Below are positions 10,888 through 44,736 of a stretch of 64,000 nt of DNA, piece by piece. Position numbers and translations under genes: made by a program. The notes below the pieces were generated by a model. That model worked only from the letters and a program-made list of their open reading frames with translations, was not told the DNA's origin and made no database searches. Every line of letters starts with the position of its first letter. The first letter of the stretch is position 1. This DNA is from an uncultured Prevotellaceae bacterium (lineage in GTDB: Bacteria > Bacteroidota > Bacteroidia > Bacteroidales > Muribaculaceae), in assembly GCA_900318535.1 (NCBI GenBank), contig ONKU01000008.1, forward strand, positions 124,001 to 188,000, read 5' to 3'.

Positions 10888-10954
10888 ACACCCTCATCAG
10901 TGTCGCTGAATTCGTTGATTTGTAACCTTAAAAAAACTGAAGGGGATAGATTAT

Positions 10955-37307: not shown

Positions 37308-38942
37308 ATGTTAGCCAGAACGATTGCAGCAGCGGTACAAGGCATCGATGCCATCAGGGTCGAGATTGAGGTGACGGTCGATTGGGGGTCGGGGTTCTTG
37401 GTCATCGGCCTGCCCGACACGGCCGTCAAGGAGAGCGCCGAACGTGTGCGCTGCGCCATCAAGCAGGCGGGATACAAGTTCCCGGGCAAAAAGGTGATGG
37501 TGAACATGTCGCCCGCCGACATCAAGAAGGAAGGGTCGGCCTATGACTTGCCGCTGGCCATCGGCATCATGGCTGCCGATGAGAAGATTTCGACCGAGCG
37601 GCTGGACCGCTATATGTTCATGGGCGAACTGTCGCTGGACGGCAGTCTGCGGCCCGTCAAGGGCGCGCTGCCCATGGCGATTCTGGCCCGTGAGCTCAAA
37701 CTGGACGGCTTTATCCTGCCGCGCGCCAATGCGATGGAGGCGGCAGTGGTCAACAACCTGAATATCTATGGCGTGGACAATTTCACACAGGTGGTGCAGT
37801 TCCTCAATGGCGACATCAGCCTGGAACCCACCGTGGTCGATACCCGCGCCGAGTTTGCCAAGGCGCAGGGCGTCTTCCCCTACGATTTTGCCGATGTCAA
37901 GGGGCAGGAGAACGTCAAGCGCGCCTTTGAAGTCGCTTGCGCCGGCGGTCACAACATCCTGCTGGTGGGCAGCCCGGGTTCTGGCAAATCGATGATGGCC
38001 AAGCGCTTGCCGTCCATCATGCCGCCCCTCACCCTGAGCGAAGCCCTCGAAACGACCAAAATCCACAGCGTGGCCGGCAAACTGCAGCAGGGCACCACGC
38101 TGATGACCGTGCGCCCCTTCCGCAGCCCGCACCACACCATCTCGCCCGTCGCCCTTGTCGGTGGCGGCAGTTTCCCCATGCCCGGCGAGATCAGTCTGGC
38201 TCACAATGGCGTGCTCTTCCTGGACGAACTGCCTGAATTCAATCGCTCCGTTTTAGAGGTGATGCGTCAGCCGTTGGAAGACAGGATTATAAGTATCAGT
38301 AGGGCGAAATACTCGACCGAATACCCCGCATCATTTATGCTCGTGGCGAGCATGAATCCCTGCCCGTGCGGGTACTACGGGCACCCCAAGAAGAAGTGCG
38401 TCTGCAACGAGTACCAGCGCACCCACTACATGAGCAAAATCAGTGGGCCGCTATTGGACCGCATTGACCTTCAGATTGAGGTCCAGCCCGTCGATTTCGA
38501 CCAAATGTCGAGTAAGGCCCCAGGCGAGCCCTCTGCCGCCATCCGCCAGCGCGTCATCGCCGCGAGGATGCTGCAGGAACGCCGCTTCAAGGACGAACCC
38601 GGCATCCACTGCAACGCCCAGATGACCCCATCCCTGCTCCACAAATACGCCGAGCCCAACGCCGCCGGCCTGGAAAAACTAAAAGACGCCATGGAACGCA
38701 TGAACATGAGCGCAAGGGCCTACGACCGCATCCTCAAAGTCGCCCGCACCATCGCCGACCTCGAAGGCACCGCCGACGTCCTCGACCACCACATCATGGA
38801 AGCCATCGCCTACTGCTTCGTTGATGGGCGAGTAATCATCGAAACGATACATAGTAACTTCAGGTTCAGAACAATGAGTGTAAAATTTCGTATCGTTATC
38901 AACACCGTCTTCCTCAAAAATCACTTTCTCTTTAATTTTTGA
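37308..38942 (+). CDS. comM: ComM/YifB family AAA+ helicase-like ATPase with replaced C-terminus
   Basis: 544 residues. An N-terminal Lon-protease-like domain (VEIEVTVDWGSGFLVIGLPD, about 1-170) precedes an AAA+ domain with Walker A GSPGSGKS near 224 and Walker B GVLFLDELPEF near 302, a zinc-finger-like CPCGYYGHPKKKCVC near 346-360 and the C-terminal lid. ComM promotes branch migration during natural transformation. Up to codon 502 the gene looks normal. After EAIAY the natural ending RNLDRPTYMGANL is replaced by about 42 unrelated residues read antisense through a zinc-ribbon gene. The proper ending survives at 42307-42348. Whether this altered protein folds and works is uncertain. Confidence 0.85.
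   Translation: MLARTIAAAVQGIDAIRVEIEVTVDWGSGFLVIGLPDTAVKESAERVRCAIKQAGYKFPGKKVMVNMSPADIKKEGSAYDLPLAIGIMAADEKISTERLDRYMFMGELSLDGSLRPVKGALPMAILARELKLDGFILPRANAMEAAVVNNLNIYGVDNFTQVVQFLNGDISLEPTVVDTRAEFAKAQGVFPYDFADVKGQENVKRAFEVACAGGHNILLVGSPGSGKSMMAKRLPSIMPPLTLSEALETTKIHSVAGKLQQGTTLMTVRPFRSPHHTISPVALVGGGSFPMPGEISLAHNGVLFLDELPEFNRSVLEVMRQPLEDRIISISRAKYSTEYPASFMLVASMNPCPCGYYGHPKKKCVCNEYQRTHYMSKISGPLLDRIDLQIEVQPVDFDQMSSKAPGEPSAAIRQRVIAARMLQERRFKDEPGIHCNAQMTPSLLHKYAEPNAAGLEKLKDAMERMNMSARAYDRILKVARTIADLEGTADVLDHHIMEAIAYCFVDGRVIIETIHSNFRFRTMSVKFRIVINTVFLKNHFLFNF
38220..38813. repeat. 594-bp direct repeat, copy 1 (comM 3' part)
   Basis: This segment aligns without gaps to 41713-42306. By eye there are about 67 mismatches in 594 bases: about 44 in the first 270 and about 23 in the rest. 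Almost all are synonymous, with only four amino-acid changes. Confidence 0.9.
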
Positions 38943-39713
38943 GCCATCAAATGTTATTTTATTCCATTGAGCACCACCCATATAAGCCATGCAAACGAGA
39001 ATGTACTTATCTCCTCGATGAATACTTGAATGAAAAGTTCCAATTTCATCGACCTTTAAAGCAACACCGTCTTTTAATGTGTAAATATATGTCATATTGT
39101 CGGCTTCACAGGTGCCTGCCTTAACCCATAATTCAGGCACACCGTCCTGTGTAATGTCATAGAGAAAATAGCCCCAATAGACATATTCATCAACTCCATA
39201 TTTGTTAATATAGCCTCTCAATACATCAATATAAGATTGACGGTTTTTATCAATGAGTTGCTGATGCATTGCCTCTGCGATAGAGTCTTGACGGGCCTGT
39301 TCGCGGAGTTCGGCAACGGCGATGGAGTCTTGGCGAGCCTGCTCTCGTTGAATGGCCAGTTGTCGTTCCAGTTCGGCTTGCTTTTGAGAGTTATCATACC
39401 ACAGCCAGCCTGCACCAGCAAGTAGCGCCAATAGAGCAACGACAAGGATGGCAACTAAACCTCCTTTGCCTTTCTTAGGCTCATCATCCCAGTCATAGGT
39501 AGGATCAGCCTGTAGTTGTGGTTTTGGTTGGGTTTCTTGGAGATGCTGGCTTTCTGCCTCCGACTGAGGTTGATGGATCGGCTCTTGGTTCCGCAAAATT
39601 TCCTCTTGGACAGGTTCGCTAACCGCCAATTTAACTGGACTGCCGCAGTGCGGACAGGCTTTTGCCTTGTCCGAAACTCTCTTGCCACATTTGCTACATG
39701 TTATCAGTGCCAT
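38679..39713 (-). CDS. Zinc-ribbon membrane protein, 3' end truncated by comM junction
   Basis: The 344-residue frame starts with a zinc ribbon (CSKCGKRVSDKAKACPHCG, residues 6-24). It continues with a Gln/Pro linker, one membrane helix (GLVAILVVALLALLAGAGWLWY near 85), a coiled-coil rich in Arg-Gln-Asp-Ser and a soluble domain likely outside the membrane (DVLRGYINKYGVDEYVYWGYF onward). The genuine sequence stops near 38814; the last 45 residues are antisense comM, so the original C-terminus is lost. AT-rich, unlike comM. First of three zinc-ribbon genes in this cassette by position, last by transcription. No known function. Confidence 0.7.
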   Translation of the reverse strand: MALITCSKCGKRVSDKAKACPHCGSPVKLAVSEPVQEEILRNQEPIHQPQSEAESQHLQETQPKPQLQADPTYDWDDEPKKGKGGLVAILVVALLALLAGAGWLWYDNSQKQAELERQLAIQREQARQDSIAVAELREQARQDSIAEAMHQQLIDKNRQSYIDVLRGYINKYGVDEYVYWGYFLYDITQDGVPELWVKAGTCEADNMTYIYTLKDGVALKVDEIGTFHSSIHRGDKYILVCMAYMGGAQWNKITFDGSKIKEKVIFEEDGVDNDTKFYTHCSEPEVTMYRFDDYSPINEAVGDGFHDVVVEDVGGAFEVGDGAGDFEDAVVGPCAHVHAFHGVF

Positions 39714-39730
39714 ATCTTTTCCAATCTATA

Positions 39731-40615
39731 CTATTGTTGGTAACCAAGCCTTTGTAATGCTGCTTTAGCATCATCATTAAGATGGTTTGCCGCTTCACGA
39801 TACCATTTCACGGCTTCCTCCAAGTCAATAGAGGCCCCATGGCCCTTTTCATAACATGCACCAATATGAAATTCAGCATCACCAGTATAATAATGATTAG
39901 CCTCAGCAATAGCCTTTGCCTTTAGGTAATGGTTTATTGCCATAGCATAATCTTGATTCAAACCTGTTCCATTTTCATAACATTCACCCAATCGTACTAT
40001 TGCCCACGGATAATCCGGATGCAGAGCCGCTGCTTTGCGAAAACAGTTTACAGCCATTTCATAGTCCTGACTTACGCCTTCTCCATTTAAATAGCAATCC
40101 CCCAAACGAAGTAGAGCATTATAGTTGTCTTGCTCTGCGGCTAGACTAAACCATTTAAATGCTTCGGTAAAATCTTGGGAAACGCCTTCTCCATTTTTAT
40201 AACACTCTCCCAATTCAACTTGTGCGTAACTATAACCTTGATCGGCTGCTTTGCGATACCACTTGACTGCCGCTTTGAAATCTTTATCATAATAATAATG
40301 GGAACCTAACAACTCCTGAGCCTCGGCCTCTCCTTTCATTGCACCGAACAAGTGCTCCCAATAACCGCTACTCCATTGACTCATCTGGCCTAGATAAATA
40401 AATAGCGAAGTCAATGAAACAATAATAGCAGCAGTGACTAATATCACTTTTGATTGTTTTTTCTTTCTTACAGATGCTTTTTCAGGATTACTAATTGTTT
40501 TGTTATCTGAAGGAGTATCAACTTGGCTTTGATTAATAATAGTTCCACAGTGGGGGCAAGCCTTCGCCTTGTCCGATACATTGCCACCACATTTTTCACA
40601 TTTGATAATTGCCAT
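39731..40615 (-). CDS. Zinc-ribbon membrane protein with Sel1-like repeats
   Basis: 294 residues. The N-terminal zinc ribbon (CEKCGGNVSDKAKACPHCG, residues 6-24) is nearly the same as in the next gene. A membrane helix follows near residues 57-76 (VILVTAAIIVSLTSLFIYLG). About five Sel1-type repeats come after it, each with A-x-x-x-LG-x-x-Y-x-x-G and W-x-x-x-A (AQVELGECYKNGEGVSQDF, ALLRLGDCYLNGEGVSQDY). Sel1 repeats mediate protein contacts. The predicted topology puts the ribbon inside and the repeats outside the membrane. The gaps to its neighbours (17 and 18 bases) indicate one operon. Confidence 0.85.
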   Translation of the reverse strand: MAIIKCEKCGGNVSDKAKACPHCGTIINQSQVDTPSDNKTISNPEKASVRKKKQSKVILVTAAIIVSLTSLFIYLGQMSQWSSGYWEHLFGAMKGEAEAQELLGSHYYYDKDFKAAVKWYRKAADQGYSYAQVELGECYKNGEGVSQDFTEAFKWFSLAAEQDNYNALLRLGDCYLNGEGVSQDYEMAVNCFRKAAALHPDYPWAIVRLGECYENGTGLNQDYAMAINHYLKAKAIAEANHYYTGDAEFHIGACYEKGHGASIDLEEAVKWYREAANHLNDDAKAALQRLGYQQ

Positions 40616-40633
40616 GATGAAAGAATTTAATAA

Positions 40634-41332
40634 TTAAGAAATTGCCCATATTGTACCACCAATAACCACAAAATATATGATGATGAAAGCGACAGCCGCA
40701 ATGATGCACCACATTGCAATTTCTGTTCCTTTATCAGGCAAAACTTCTGCAACATAATTTGGGTCATATTTTGGTGATTTGCCATACTCATTGGTCTCTT
40801 TATCGGAGTCCCTAAACATGAAAATCCACGGAATTACAGGGCAAATAACCCACCATCCGTTTCGACCTATATCATGAAGCCTTCTTGCAACTGCAGCAAA
40901 CCATGGAATTGCAGTGATTAACAAAAAGATATAGGCAAGAGTGGGATAACCAAAAGAAAGAATGAGCCAGATAAATAGTACGCAAACGAAAAACGGGAAA
41001 ACTTCGCTTCGGCGTGAACGCCCAGAAAACTTGGCAAATTTGCGGCAGAAACAATCATAAATTGAATCGCCATAATCTAATGGTGCATAAATCCCTTTTG
41101 CACCACACTGCGGACAACGCTTTGCGTCAATTGAAATCTGGTGTCCACATTCACGACAAGTATTCAGATTACCTCTCTGTTTTTGAATAGGAGAATTGGG
41201 TGATGACACATTCGCTTTGTGCTGTTTATCATTGACTTTTACACACTCGCTGGCAGGATTGCCACATTCTGGACAGGATTGAAGGTTGGCGTCGAATTCA
41301 AAACCACATTCAGTACATAATAGTTTTGCCAT
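40634..41332 (-). CDS. Zinc-ribbon DUF805 membrane protein
   Basis: 232 residues. Two zinc ribbons come first: CTECGFEFDANLQSCPECG (5-23) and CRECGHQISIDAKRCPQCG (58-76). A DUF805 domain follows, with FAKFSGRSRRSEVFPFF near 99 and AVARRLHDIGRNGWWVICPV near 147 and several membrane helices; an additional C-terminal helix closes the protein. DUF805 proteins are small inner-membrane proteins without a settled function. It is the first transcribed gene of the cassette operon. AT-rich throughout. Confidence 0.85.
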   Translation of the reverse strand: MAKLLCTECGFEFDANLQSCPECGNPASECVKVNDKQHKANVSSPNSPIQKQRGNLNTCRECGHQISIDAKRCPQCGAKGIYAPLDYGDSIYDCFCRKFAKFSGRSRRSEVFPFFVCVLFIWLILSFGYPTLAYIFLLITAIPWFAAVARRLHDIGRNGWWVICPVIPWIFMFRDSDKETNEYGKSPKYDPNYVAEVLPDKGTEIAMWCIIAAVAFIIIYFVVIGGTIWAIS

Positions 41333-41712
41333 AACCGATTAATAATTAATTACGTTATCCAGCGACTCCTTGCTGGCAAGATAATTAGTTTCATAGGCAT
41401 AAAAAGAAACGCAGAAGTCCATATTTGTTACTCATAACTAAGCTCCAAATAAACGCCATTTTATGTCATGAGTTCCCTGCCATACACCCACCGACACATA
41501 GGACGACGGAGTGCAGCCAAAGCACAACTGCAAATATACACATTTTTTCACAATTCTGCACAATCTGTTTGCTTTTTTCCAGCAGGTCAACAGAAATACG
41601 AATTAGTTGTATTACCTTTGTGATTGTGATTGCTTTAATGGTGAACATAATTGGCCTTTCCATAGCTTTATGGCTGTCTGTGAGGCTGTTGCAATGGGGC
41701 AAGTTCTTCCTC
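41333..41712. other. 380-bp AT-rich spacer between the cassette operon and the comM fragment
   Basis: No gene is seen. The reverse strand has TATATTTG at 41531-41538, a -7 candidate for the cassette operon with a leader near 190 bases. The forward strand has TACCTTTG near 41611-41618, which could drive the comM fragment. A forward open frame crosses this region from 41425 into the comM fragment, but its N-terminal part has no family resemblance. Confidence 0.5.
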
Positions 41713-42306
41713 TTGGATGAGCTGCCCGAGTTCAATCGCTCCGTTTTAGAGGTGATGCGCCAGCCGTTGGAGGACAGAATTATCAGTATTAGTAGGGCAA
41801 AATATTCTACAGAGTATCCCGCGTCGTTTATGCTGGTGGCGTCGATGAATCCGTGCCCCTGCGGATACTATGGCCATCCCAAGAAAAAATGCGTCTGCAA
41901 CGAGTACCAGCGCACGCACTACATGAGCAAGATTTCGGGACCACTGCTTGACCGCATTGACCTGCAGATCGAAGTCCAGCCCGTCGATTTTGACCAGATG
42001 TCCAGTAAAGCCCCTGGCGAGCCCTCTGCTGCCATCCGCCAGCGCGTCATCGCCGCGAGGATGCTGCAGGAGCGCCGCTTCAAGGACGAACCCGGTATCC
42101 ACTGCAACGCCCAGATGACCCCGTCCCTGCTGCACAAATACGCCGAGCCCAACGCCGCCGGCCTGGAAAAGCTTCGCGACGCCATGGAACGCATGAACAT
42201 GAGCGCGAGGGCCTACGACCGCATCCTCAAAGTCGCCCGCACCATCGCCGACCTCGAGGCCTGCGCCGTTGTCCTTGACCACCACATCATGGAAGCCATC
42301 GCCTAC
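41713..42306. repeat. 594-bp direct repeat, copy 2 (comM 3' part)
   Basis: Same orientation as copy 1 at 38220-38813, 3493 bases downstream, and about 89% identical without gaps. Identity is higher in its second half than in its first. Confidence 0.9.
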
Positions 42307-42348
42307 CGCAACCTCGACCGCCCCACCTATATGGGAGCAAACTTATAG
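41713..42348 (+). pseudogene. comM 3' fragment with the authentic C-terminus
   Basis: Residues from the Walker B LDELPEF to the family end RNLDRPTYMGANL are present, about 211 residues. The Lon-like domain and Walker A are missing. An open frame upstream to 41425 supplies an unrelated N-terminus with a hydrophobic stretch, so a fusion product is possible but cannot bind ATP as a normal ComM. It is best read as the displaced 3' end of comM, or as a donor copy from a related strain. Confidence 0.85.
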
Positions 42349-42414: not shown

Positions 42415-42942
42415 ATGGAGATATTGCATCGATACTATTACCGGCAGGGGCTGGCGGTTGCAAAGGCGGTGATTTATACGATCCTGTCGGTGGCGTTTGT
42501 CGCTTTTGGGGTGTACAGCTTTATCCATTGGGAGTTGTCGTTTATGTTTCATGACTGGCATGGTTACGTGGTGCTCATTGTCTATGGCATGATGACATTG
42601 GCCGTGATCCTGTCGGCTGTCGAATCTTTCAAGAAAGTCGCTAAAACACGTCGCGATATACCCGCATTTGCTGTTGGCGCTGACTTCTTCGTCTTCTACG
42701 GCCATGACGGCTCGGCTACAACGATACCTTTTGCTGACTGTGAACAGGTGAGGTTCAATTCAGTCATACGATTTCGTGTCCCCACGCTTCTGCTCATCGT
42801 GAAATATCATGAAAAGAAGGACCCAGAGAGCACCCTTCGTTTCGAGGTGAGTCTAAGCGAACTCAACTGTTCTGTCAAAGAGATTGACAAACAGCTGAAA
42901 AAAGTGTACCAGAAATACAAGAAAGCGTCTGCCGAGCAATAA
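42415..42942 (+). CDS. Small membrane protein with PH-like domain (STM3941-like)
   Basis: This 175-residue protein has two N-terminal membrane helices (VIYTILSVAFVAFGVYSF and VVLIVYGMMTLAVILSAV). A soluble domain with short beta-strands follows (FFVFYGHDGSATTIPFADCEQV, TLRFEVSLSEL), and a Lys-rich helical tail ends the protein. The helix-hairpin plus PH-like arrangement recalls the STM3941/YcxB-type families; the match is tentative and no function is known. It lies just downstream of the comM fragment and upstream of a pair of dispersed palindromes. Confidence 0.5.
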   Translation: MEILHRYYYRQGLAVAKAVIYTILSVAFVAFGVYSFIHWELSFMFHDWHGYVVLIVYGMMTLAVILSAVESFKKVAKTRRDIPAFAVGADFFVFYGHDGSATTIPFADCEQVRFNSVIRFRVPTLLLIVKYHEKKDPESTLRFEVSLSELNCSVKEIDKQLKKVYQKYKKASAEQ

Positions 42943-43009
42943 GACACATTGGCCGCTGAATTCAAACAACAGATTTATCTGAGATTTCTGATGGGTATCC
43001 GCACGAACA

Positions 43010-43093
43010 GTAGAGACGCAAAAAATCTTGCGTCTCTCATTGTGAAATAGTAACAAAATGCTTGCCTGGAGACGCAAGATTTTGCGTCTCTAC
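43010..43093. repeat. Dispersed palindromic repeat, copies 2 and 3, in inverted arrangement
   Basis: Copy 2 (43010-43037) and copy 3 (43068-43093) share the TAGAGACGCAA/TTGCGTCTCTA arms of the element at 14298-14327, but their loops have opposite orientation. Each can fold alone, or the two can pair into one large cruciform. They separate convergent genes, with the acyl-CoA synthetase stop 23 bases away. Confidence 0.8.
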
Positions 43094-43116: not shown

Positions 43117-44736
43117 TTACTTGTAGAGGAAGCGTTTGATGGTTCTCTTCGGGGTTTTCTCGAAGGGTTCTTTCATCATTTCCACTTTTGCGATCTTGCT
43201 GTAGGAGGGGAGGGATTTGTTGGCTGCCTCGCGGATTTGTCCGGGGATGGCTGCTTTGGTCTCCTCGTCCATGTCTTCGGGGAACTCGGTGTAAACGAGT
43301 GCCGTGATTTTGCCGTCGCGGTCCACCACAAGGCATTCATCGACATTCGGGCAGTTGGACAGGACGGCCTCGACCTCTTCAGGATAGATGTTTTGACCAG
43401 AGGAGTTGAGGATCATCGATTTGATGCGGCCGCGGATGAAGATGTTGCCCTTCTCGTCGATGATGCCCAGGTCGCCGGTGCGGAACCATCCGTCCTCGGT
43501 AAAGGCTGCCTCGGTGGCCTCGGGGTTCTTGTAGTATCCGATGGTGAGGTTGCGGCCGCGGGCCTGGATTTCGCCGGGGATGTGGTGCGGGTCGTCGGAG
43601 TCGATGCGCAGTTCGTGGACGGGCTTTCCGCAGGAGCCGGGCACAAACTTGGTCCACCACTCATAGCCCAGCAGCGGGCAGGCCTCGGTCATGCCATAGC
43701 CCACGGTATAAGGCAGGCGGATCTTCTTGAAGCACTGCTCGGCCTCGGGGTTGAGCGCCGCGCCGCCCATGATGAAGCATTGCACGGCCCCGCCGAAGGC
43801 CTCGATGACCTTGTTGCGTGCCTTGCGGTAAATGAGTTTGTTCAGTCCGGGGATGGCCAGCAGCGATTTGGCTTTCTCCAGCGCCGGCTTGATGGCATTG
43901 GCATAGATCTTCTCCATCACCAGGGGCACCGTGACCACCATGTAGGGCTTGATGTCCTTCATCGCCTTGAGCAGGGTAGTGGGCGACGGGGTCTTGCCCA
44001 GGAAATAGACGGTAACGCCATCCACGTTGGGGTGGATGAACTCGATGGCCAAGCCGTACATGTGTGCCAGGGGCAGCATCGACACCACGGTCTGGCCGGG
44101 AGTGTTCGGGAAGTGGCTGTTGGCGAAGTCGTCGGTGTCGGACATGGCGTTATAGGTGAGCATCACGCCCTTGGGGTTGCCCGTGGTTCCTGACGTGTAG
44201 TTGATGATGGCCAGGTCGTCGCCATTGTCACCGGGATAGGACACCTGCTCGGGGTACATTCCATTGGGGTGTTGTTGCGAGAATGCGGCCATGCGGTTAT
44301 TCCAGGCATTGGCCACCGCTTCGTCCTGGTGCCACAGCAGGTTGCCGTTCTTGACGTTGATTGCCGCCTTGAGGTTGGGCGTCTCGTCAGGATTCATTTT
44401 GGCCCAGATGTCGTCGTCGACAAAGAGCAGAACACTGTCGGAATGGTTGGTGAGGGTAGAAACCGTGTTCGGGTGGAAATCGGACAGCAGCGGCACCGCC
44501 ACGCAGCCATTGACATTGATTCCCCAAAAGGTCATCGCCCAACGGGCGCTGTTGCGGGCACAGAGGGCGATTTTATCCCCCTTGCTGATACCTACAGCCT
44601 CGAAAAAGATGCGGAACCGTTCAACGTTGATAGCCAGCTGTGCATAGGTAAAAGAGTCGCCATTGTAGTCACACAGGGCCTTTTGGGTCCAATGCTGGCG
44701 CACAGTGTCCTCGAGATTCTTCAGATAGTGCCTCAT
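43117..44736 (-). CDS. AMP-binding acyl-CoA synthetase (long-chain fatty acid-CoA ligase type)
   Basis: 539 residues with the adenylate-forming enzyme motifs in order: INYTSGTTGNPKGVMLTY near residue 177 (phosphate loop), IMGGAALNPEAEQ near 318, VGYGMTEACPLLGY near 341, GWFRTGDLG near 413, and the C-terminal catalytic Lys in TPKRTIKRF near 531. It activates fatty acids with ATP and CoA at the inner membrane. The protein is somewhat shorter than E. coli FadD and resembles the Bacteroidota long-chain synthetases. It has its own promoter (TACCTTTG, reverse strand). Confidence 0.9.
   Translation of the reverse strand: MRHYLKNLEDTVRQHWTQKALCDYNGDSFTYAQLAINVERFRIFFEAVGISKGDKIALCARNSARWAMTFWGINVNGCVAVPLLSDFHPNTVSTLTNHSDSVLLFVDDDIWAKMNPDETPNLKAAINVKNGNLLWHQDEAVANAWNNRMAAFSQQHPNGMYPEQVSYPGDNGDDLAIINYTSGTTGNPKGVMLTYNAMSDTDDFANSHFPNTPGQTVVSMLPLAHMYGLAIEFIHPNVDGVTVYFLGKTPSPTTLLKAMKDIKPYMVVTVPLVMEKIYANAIKPALEKAKSLLAIPGLNKLIYRKARNKVIEAFGGAVQCFIMGGAALNPEAEQCFKKIRLPYTVGYGMTEACPLLGYEWWTKFVPGSCGKPVHELRIDSDDPHHIPGEIQARGRNLTIGYYKNPEATEAAFTEDGWFRTGDLGIIDEKGNIFIRGRIKSMILNSSGQNIYPEEVEAVLSNCPNVDECLVVDRDGKITALVYTEFPEDMDEETKAAIPGQIREAANKSLPSYSKIAKVEMMKEPFEKTPKRTIKRFLYK

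Follow-up and report, generated by a model that had tools for sequence, protein, structure and literature searches.

Ruminant-gut species repeatedly copy and swap the comM 3' half together with small defence-like cassettes, and a split comM in one of them looks like one such insertion

The comM gene and the ends of other genes are described as places where elements gather in several systems. A conserved 10-bp stretch within the Walker B codons of comM is the target of TnsF, both in Tn6022 and in the tyrosine-recombinase element Tsy, and at Tsy loci the comM 3' portion lies behind the cargo, as given in the part on which we draw of PMC10293859, a paper whose main text does not contain the word Bacteroid. 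In Acinetobacter baumannii, AbaR islands and further elements, many of which bring defence systems, often inactivate comM (22% of strains), and cis-mobilizable elements (CIMEs), which have no recombinase, accrete at gene ends, according to the portions consulted of PMC11472951 and PMC5704250, respectively. Here we describe a split comM in a 64,000-nucleotide stretch of contig ONKU01000008.1 (the window, meaning the whole stretch analyzed), from an uncultured Prevotellaceae bacterium with a genome of 2.92 Mb in 43 contigs, and compare it with relatives of its genus, labelled g1. In the open-licence literature, the only literature searched, we found no title on comM arrays in Bacteroidales.

In this genus, small cassettes unrelated to one another, many of which carry toxin-antitoxin or defence-type genes, occupy the interval between comM and conserved downstream genes. 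Species have also exchanged the true 3' half of comM, the principal break being close to the Walker B codons. The relatives are uncultured assemblies, in most cases of ruminant-gut origin, and are filed under Muribaculaceae, Prevotellaceae, or Bacteroidales. The locus set (n = 71) comprised the window, 40 region stretches, and 30 of 64 contig-derived loci of named genomes; the other 34 shared DNA with the region stretches in a 60-mer check and were not used. Three loci from other genera (L131, L141, and L145) were excluded from the count of first comM copies and their ends and from the count of downstream fragments in 43 loci, and these three together with L133 were excluded from the cargo-representative set and from the comparison of fragment origin.

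A search of 61 g1 genomes, including that of the window, with comM DNA returned partial extra matches in many, with the same starts recurring. Out of 43 g1 loci with more than 3 kb downstream of comM, 30 had one or more comM 3' fragments following it, in comM orientation and between unrelated small cassettes; this search used the comM strand only, and a separate search of both strands also placed the fragments in the comM direction. Where the right border is present, the arrays lie between comM and the gene of a 175-aa membrane protein and/or an acyl-CoA synthetase gene, and many arrays stop at contig ends. In the cassette-poor relative L129, comM is ~1.2 kb from the acyl-CoA synthetase gene. 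The first copy kept its terminal YRxLDR motif in 46 of 56 loci, or 47 with G042, which was scored absent through a start-coordinate error and whose 513-aa open reading frame (ORF) matches to the end. In 8 loci of the close clade (the genome of the window, L140, G024, L129, G017, L123, G054, and L138), something other than the end of a contig breaks the first copy, and some of these breaks could be assembly errors. In L140, the frame of the first comM copy (near 10921) is broken by the loss of 23 nt at nt 921, at Walker B.

Fragment length ranged from 23 to 699 nt. Long fragments begin at nt 908-916 of comM in 36 rows (L144 and L153 being one contig), and many of these 912-type fragments have similar upstream sequence, as expected for the end of an element; shorter fragments start elsewhere, at nt 1363-1444. 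A comM 3' fragment (nt 1363-1539) was also present at 10010-10186 of L154 (G018, contig 3), ~25 kb from comM and on the opposite strand, and fragments can therefore occur outside the comM locus. When 110 genomes of other genera of the family were searched with the comM C-terminal half, comM pieces were identified downstream in three (G100, G110, and G128), along with two long matches on separate contigs in G086 and weak ones in G064 and G122.

The exchange of the 3' half was apparent at four-fold degenerate sites, where identity among 28 first copies of the close clade was 0.47-0.69 in every 20-codon bin to codon 380 and climbed to 0.98 at codons 481-500, with 0.81 in the last 16 codons. Among 17 more distant g1 members, identity rose only over approximately the last 200 nt, to 0.75 and 0.89, and a mild rise at the end was found in the comparison sets g14 (9 genomes, 0.30-0.49), g23 (7 genomes, 0.37-0.63), and 20 loci mainly of other genera (0.33-0.58). 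Pairwise distances across the 28 species correlated at 0.59 between nt 1-450 and nt 451-900, and distances over nt 1-900 correlated at 0.06 with those over nt 901-1050, 0.32 with nt 1051-1200 (p 0.014), and -0.04 with nt 1201-1350. In sliding windows, correlation with the 5' part was 0.57-0.59 for starts at nt 780-810, fell from 0.42 to 0.15 for starts at 825-885, and was 0.04-0.10 at 900-960 and -0.05 to 0.24 beyond. The 3' half of comM is thus decoupled from the 5' half across 28 species, with a break near nt 900-925, at the Walker B codons. A change-point scan placed 32 of 378 species pairs, which share genomes among them, above threshold, with 11 in nt 900-959 and 20 in nt 780-959, against a largest bin of 4 in 60 block shuffles. 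At base level, G009 and G058 switch after nt 924, and the genome of the window and G018 between 915 and 924. Few pairs shared 21-mers in nt 900-959 (4% at most), much of the 5' part being similarly poor in them, and sharing was frequent over nt 1020-1440 (17-67% of pairs); assembly joins or crossovers driven by identity are therefore not expected to pile up near Walker B.

The cassettes carry predicted genes of many kinds. Pfam matches of the cargo, which include the best 25 of 96 families from a scan of 109 of 138 cargo representatives, comprise at least RhuM, DUF4143 ATPase, archaeal-type ATPase, FRG, MqsR-like (weak) and Panacea toxin-antitoxin proteins, YoeB, ORF6N, DUF1016/YhcG nuclease, SEFIR/TIR, HNH, GmrSD, NYN, SNF2 helicase, and zinc-ribbon proteins. 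Among the best 25 of 237 PADLOC matches, RhuM corresponds to the candidate PDC-S05 and other cargo to PDC-S01 and S02, all as predictions. Cargo without defence-like character was also present, including BspA-type repeats, a sulfate permease, two dockerin proteins, and one IS1595 transposase.

Some cassette families hold one comM junction across species. RhuM genes directly followed by a fragment join it at nt 1378-1381 in 5 of 5 loci (in G035, RhuM is followed by a DUF4143 remnant and not by a comM fragment), a far-clade cassette does so at nt 1438 in 3 of 3, and the end stretch of the MqsR/Panacea cassette at nt 1425-1427 in 6 of 6, judged by eye and with two recognized by that stretch alone. 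The RhuM and MqsR/Panacea cassettes start behind different comM copies: RhuM after the first comM in G032, G009, G059, G035, and L097 and after an internal fragment in G033, and MqsR/Panacea after the first comM in G024 and G054 and after fragments in L108, L123, G009, and G033. Among the matches listed, the MqsR/Panacea block of G024 is 97.8-99.8% identical in DNA to those of G009, L108, L123, and G054, and comM nt 1-840 of the same pairs is 82-84% alike. Cassettes begin at the comM stop, and several genes have a comM tail within ~20 bases behind them. Between G011 and L127, differences extend to nt 1527, and the DNA beyond that point is ~98% shared; the comM end is therefore a second place of exchange.

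For the origin of the fragments, those of at least 140 nt with a first copy of their own were compared with 55 first copies by gapped alignment. For 5 of the 43 fragments, the first copy of the same genome matched best (2 of 39 close-clade and 3 of 4 far-clade fragments), and the window fragment was closest to L097, with its own first copy only 25th of 55. These ranks bear out the suggestion of the first-pass annotation, made from the window alone, that DNA of a related strain had been brought in, as opposed to a simple duplication. Local duplication was set aside on the same counts, except in the far clade, where it may have occurred. Carriage by phages or plasmids was likewise set aside: two exact comM-end patterns had 0 matches in viral contigs, and blastn of the fragment returned 6 plasmid and 2 phage records with partial matches only (60-80% identity, coverage at most 39%), the one plasmid record opened being without annotation.

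The window holds the following features, with the evidence for each.

37308..38813, + strand: comM first copy, codons 1-502 (ORF list, alignment to the second copy, and comparison with 55 other first copies).
38214..38231, + strand: Walker B codons LFLDEL of comM, nt 907-924, the putative crossover site (distance break, starts of 912-type fragments, and published TnsF target motif, PMC10293859).
38814..38942, + strand: aberrant comM tail of 129 bp reading into the cassette (translation and AT-rich step).
38814..39713 (ORF 38679-39713), - strand: cassette gene 1, zinc-ribbon protein with one membrane segment, probably 3'-truncated (Pfam Zn_Ribbon_1; membrane segment and truncation read from the sequence).
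39731..40615, - strand: cassette gene 2, Sel1 repeats and a weak N-terminal zinc-ribbon match (Pfam; zinc-ribbon matches below the curated cut-off).
40634..41332, - strand: cassette gene 3, zinc ribbon and DUF805 (Pfam and relatives).
41600..41712, + strand: possible element end, resembling sequence upstream of many other 912-type fragments (36 rows by eye; boundary approximate).
41713..42348, + strand: comM 3' half, displaced second copy, codons 305-515 and stop (alignment to the first copy).
42415..42942, + strand: gene of the 175-aa membrane protein, right array border (same gene near the array end in several relatives).
43117..44736, - strand: acyl-CoA synthetase gene, conserved right border (relatives).

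The structure that the first-pass annotation had read here holds up. The first comM copy is regular to codon 502, lacks the last 13 codons and the terminal YRNLDR motif, and runs into AT-rich DNA, where GC per 300 nt drops from 0.60 to 0.37, to end as a 544-aa ORF at 38942. Three reverse-strand zinc-ribbon genes follow, for which Pfam agrees, only weakly in the case of 39731-40615, and the second copy carries the correct ending. The two copies lie at an offset of 3493 bp without gaps and match in 527 of 594 bases over 38220-38813 (88.6%); over codons 304-501, 68 of 594 bases differ, with 139 codons identical, 54 synonymous, and 5 non-synonymous, so that, as had been noted, the differences are mostly synonymous (54 of 59 differing codons). 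Similarity is uneven, with 84% at nt 912-1210, 96% at nt 1211-1360, and 91% at nt 1361-1500, and a 594-nt repeat of such quality is far beyond chance. The relatives, in turn, hold arrays of other cassettes behind comM, and the idea that cassette content differs between strains is thereby upheld. ORF 38679-39713 looks truncated because its 3' end extends antisense into comM. Both the comM end and the 3' end of this cassette gene thus look cut, and the tail at 38814..38942 is perhaps the scar of a deletion that took the two together. The 38813/38814 junction rests on a single assembly of 43 contigs, in which the whole window occurs once.

The 29 bases at the end of 41600..41712 occur once in the genome of the window, allowing up to 3 mismatches. 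At 41608-42348 and in many 912-type fragments, an open frame joins a membrane segment to the ComM C-terminal half, and a possible Bacteroidales promoter (TAxxTTTG) is present as well; as read from the sequence, this frame may be expressed. A repeat of ~50 bp (AAACAACTGATT..TCTGA..TTTCTGAT) lies at 42958-43010 and also in L056, L060, L072, and L153, in intergenic DNA and at comM nt 1459 in degenerate fragments, with a further copy near a recA-like gene on contig 43 of the same genome. Considered as a possible site, it led to no conclusion: it occurs outside comM too, and its parts are by eye not clearly more conserved than the sequence around them.

We searched for recombinases with the tyrosine-recombinase model PF00589 in 36 genomes. 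In G100, of another genus, comM and a comM fragment flank the 169-aa remnant of a truncated tyrosine recombinase (L186, 5562-6071). Beside tyrosine recombinases elsewhere in four genomes, blastn to comM gave matches of only 14-44 nt. Contig 30 of the genome of the window has two adjacent tyrosine recombinases (L227, 4229-7222) with no comM remnant seen nearby, and these are candidates for action in trans. Very long tyrosine recombinases were present in two relatives, one of 945 aa beside one of 481 aa (L228, 3934-8360) and one of 1074 aa in a single frame (L229, 5590-8811), near a gene that is presumably riboflavin synthase. No tnsABC or tniQ appeared among the best 25 of 96 Pfam families for 109 cargo proteins, in a scan not dedicated to them.

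We consider it somewhat probable that the window locus is one member of a genus-wide cassette array anchored at comM, formed by insertion at Walker B with a replacement 3' half and then shuffled by homologous recombination. Elements without their own recombinase would recombine at the Walker B codons, each carrying a comM 3' half that restores the frame and leaving the earlier 3' half displaced beyond the cargo; a recombinase of the tyrosine-recombinase type would be supplied in trans, as for TnsF/Tsy. Shorter fragments would stem from other junctions, and homologous recombination between comM repeats would then shuffle, lose, and homogenize cassettes. In the genome of the window, the zinc-ribbon cassette would have been inserted at comM, with a later left-edge deletion removing the comM end. 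A number of observations weigh against this account. Four-fold identity climbs from nt ~1020 with no step at nt 912, a gradient that calls for homologous exchange as well; the change-point pairs share genomes and are therefore not 32 independent events, with G018 involved in 8 of 25 listed pairs; and G036 and G037 start differing at nt ~786, and G025 and L130 change near 947. The shorter fragments (nt 1363-1444) require a second site or mechanism, and DUF4143 genes join comM at several points (1429 in 4 of 8, others at 1053, 1363, 1376, and 1418). Native 3' halves displaced to the far side would be expected to follow the 5' part, which is not clearly the case (correlation 0.17, p 0.14, 15 taxa, for distal fragments), and far-clade fragments may be home-made, as 3 of 4 are closest to their own comM. 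The sole PF00589 match within the fetched comM stretches, with TnsF and IntI not modelled separately, was that of G100, where the comM fragment starts away from Walker B, and no complete genome with an array was among those examined, all named genomes being uncultured assemblies.

The main and serious rival is homologous recombination alone, to which we give a real but minority share of belief: incoming chromosomal DNA, by transformation, conjugation, or transduction, would recombine in the comM 3' repeats and add, replace, or delete cassettes with no site-specific enzyme. The homogenization gradient over nt 1020-1500, comM stretches with no recombinase seen in 35 of the 36 genomes, and fragments drawn from a genus-wide pool with long homologous arms all agree with it, but the break clusters near Walker B, where few k-mers are shared and where the long fragments start. 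A process like that of integrons, in which the last ~100 bp of comM would be the attachment site and a gene with a comM-end site would be inserted behind comM by a recombinase in trans, fits the cassettes beginning at the comM stop, the comM tails within ~20 bases of several genes, the four-fold identity of 0.98 at nt 1441-1500 in the close clade, the G011/L127 sharing after nt 1527, and the toxin-antitoxin and defence-type cargo; we judge it unlikely, as it leaves the break near nt 912 and the variable fragment lengths unexplained and its integrase, too, is unseen in those comM stretches. Misjoining of comM copies by short-read assembly could be suspected from the many contigs ending inside or just past arrays, from the frame-breaking deletions in several first copies, and from L133 (1-1350), a contig binned as Lentisphaeria in which a g1 comM 5' part continues in frame, from Walker B on, as a diverged 3' part, with nt 176-939 being 96.5% identical to the window among the matches listed. 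This fusion may be a wrong join or a real exchange between distant groups and is a reminder that artefacts can produce joins at Walker B, but the same cassette-fragment junctions recur in separate assemblies and the break sits where k-mer sharing is low, which makes an artefact quite improbable as a general explanation. Slighter still is the chance of what the first-pass annotation had proposed, a reversible deletion private to this strain that would switch comM and competence. The direct repeats permit such a deletion, a crossover between them removing 3493 bp, and the cassette-poor L129 exists, but the comM end is kept in 46 of 56 first copies, with or without arrays, so that its loss is a minority state; neither a deleted form of the window cassette, nor a mixed population, nor an effect on competence could be demonstrated with these data, and it is unproven that competence is reversibly switched here.

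If insertion at Walker B is taken further, comM in these Bacteroidales could be a gene-conserving cassette platform, in which a recombinase in trans would swap the 3' half at Walker B with each defence-type cassette and comM would at the same time be the site of attachment, act as a selectable marker of correct insertion, and provide the homology that anchors spread from one species to another; we put this forward tentatively, as possible and short of what we would expect. The arrays suggest that a housekeeping recombination gene is a shared docking site through which small defence and toxin-antitoxin genes are traded across an entire genus, with no visible mobile-element machinery and with the gene mostly kept, and the cassettes behind comM offer a direct route to new defence candidates.

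The comM arrays resemble those of integrons, whose cassettes are small and promiscuous, carry toxin-antitoxin and defence-type genes, and each include a copy of the site. They differ in using the end of a coding gene as the site, and a general tyrosine-recombinase model, IntI not being modelled separately, identified no integrase beside the array in the comM stretches of all but one of 36 genomes. The following comparisons hold for the described systems as presented in the parts of the reports on which we draw. Like CIMEs, the comM arrays are tandem units without a recombinase, bounded by copies of the end of the target gene, but the comM repeats are often hundreds of bp long and exchanged between species, and the units are often single genes (PMC5704250). 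As in Acinetobacter, comM is a hot spot for defence-bearing islands, with the difference that comM is inactivated there and the first copy is mostly kept here (PMC11472951). Tsy encodes a tyrosine recombinase (YRec) and TnsF, whereas here no YRec or TnsF was recognized in the arrays (one PF00589 match, the G100 remnant, in the comM stretches of 36 genomes, with TnsF not modelled) and the arrays hold several cassettes, in which they differ from Tsy and Tn6022 alike. With Tsy the arrays share the comM 3' portion beyond the cargo, but with a first copy that is complete in most loci, and with both Tsy and Tn6022 they share the same gene and the same Walker B region, to which the break at nt 900-925 and the long-fragment starts at nt 908-916 correspond. 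This suggests that the published TnsF targeting of Walker B in comM (PMC10293859) is tied to a comM-preserving form in Bacteroidales.

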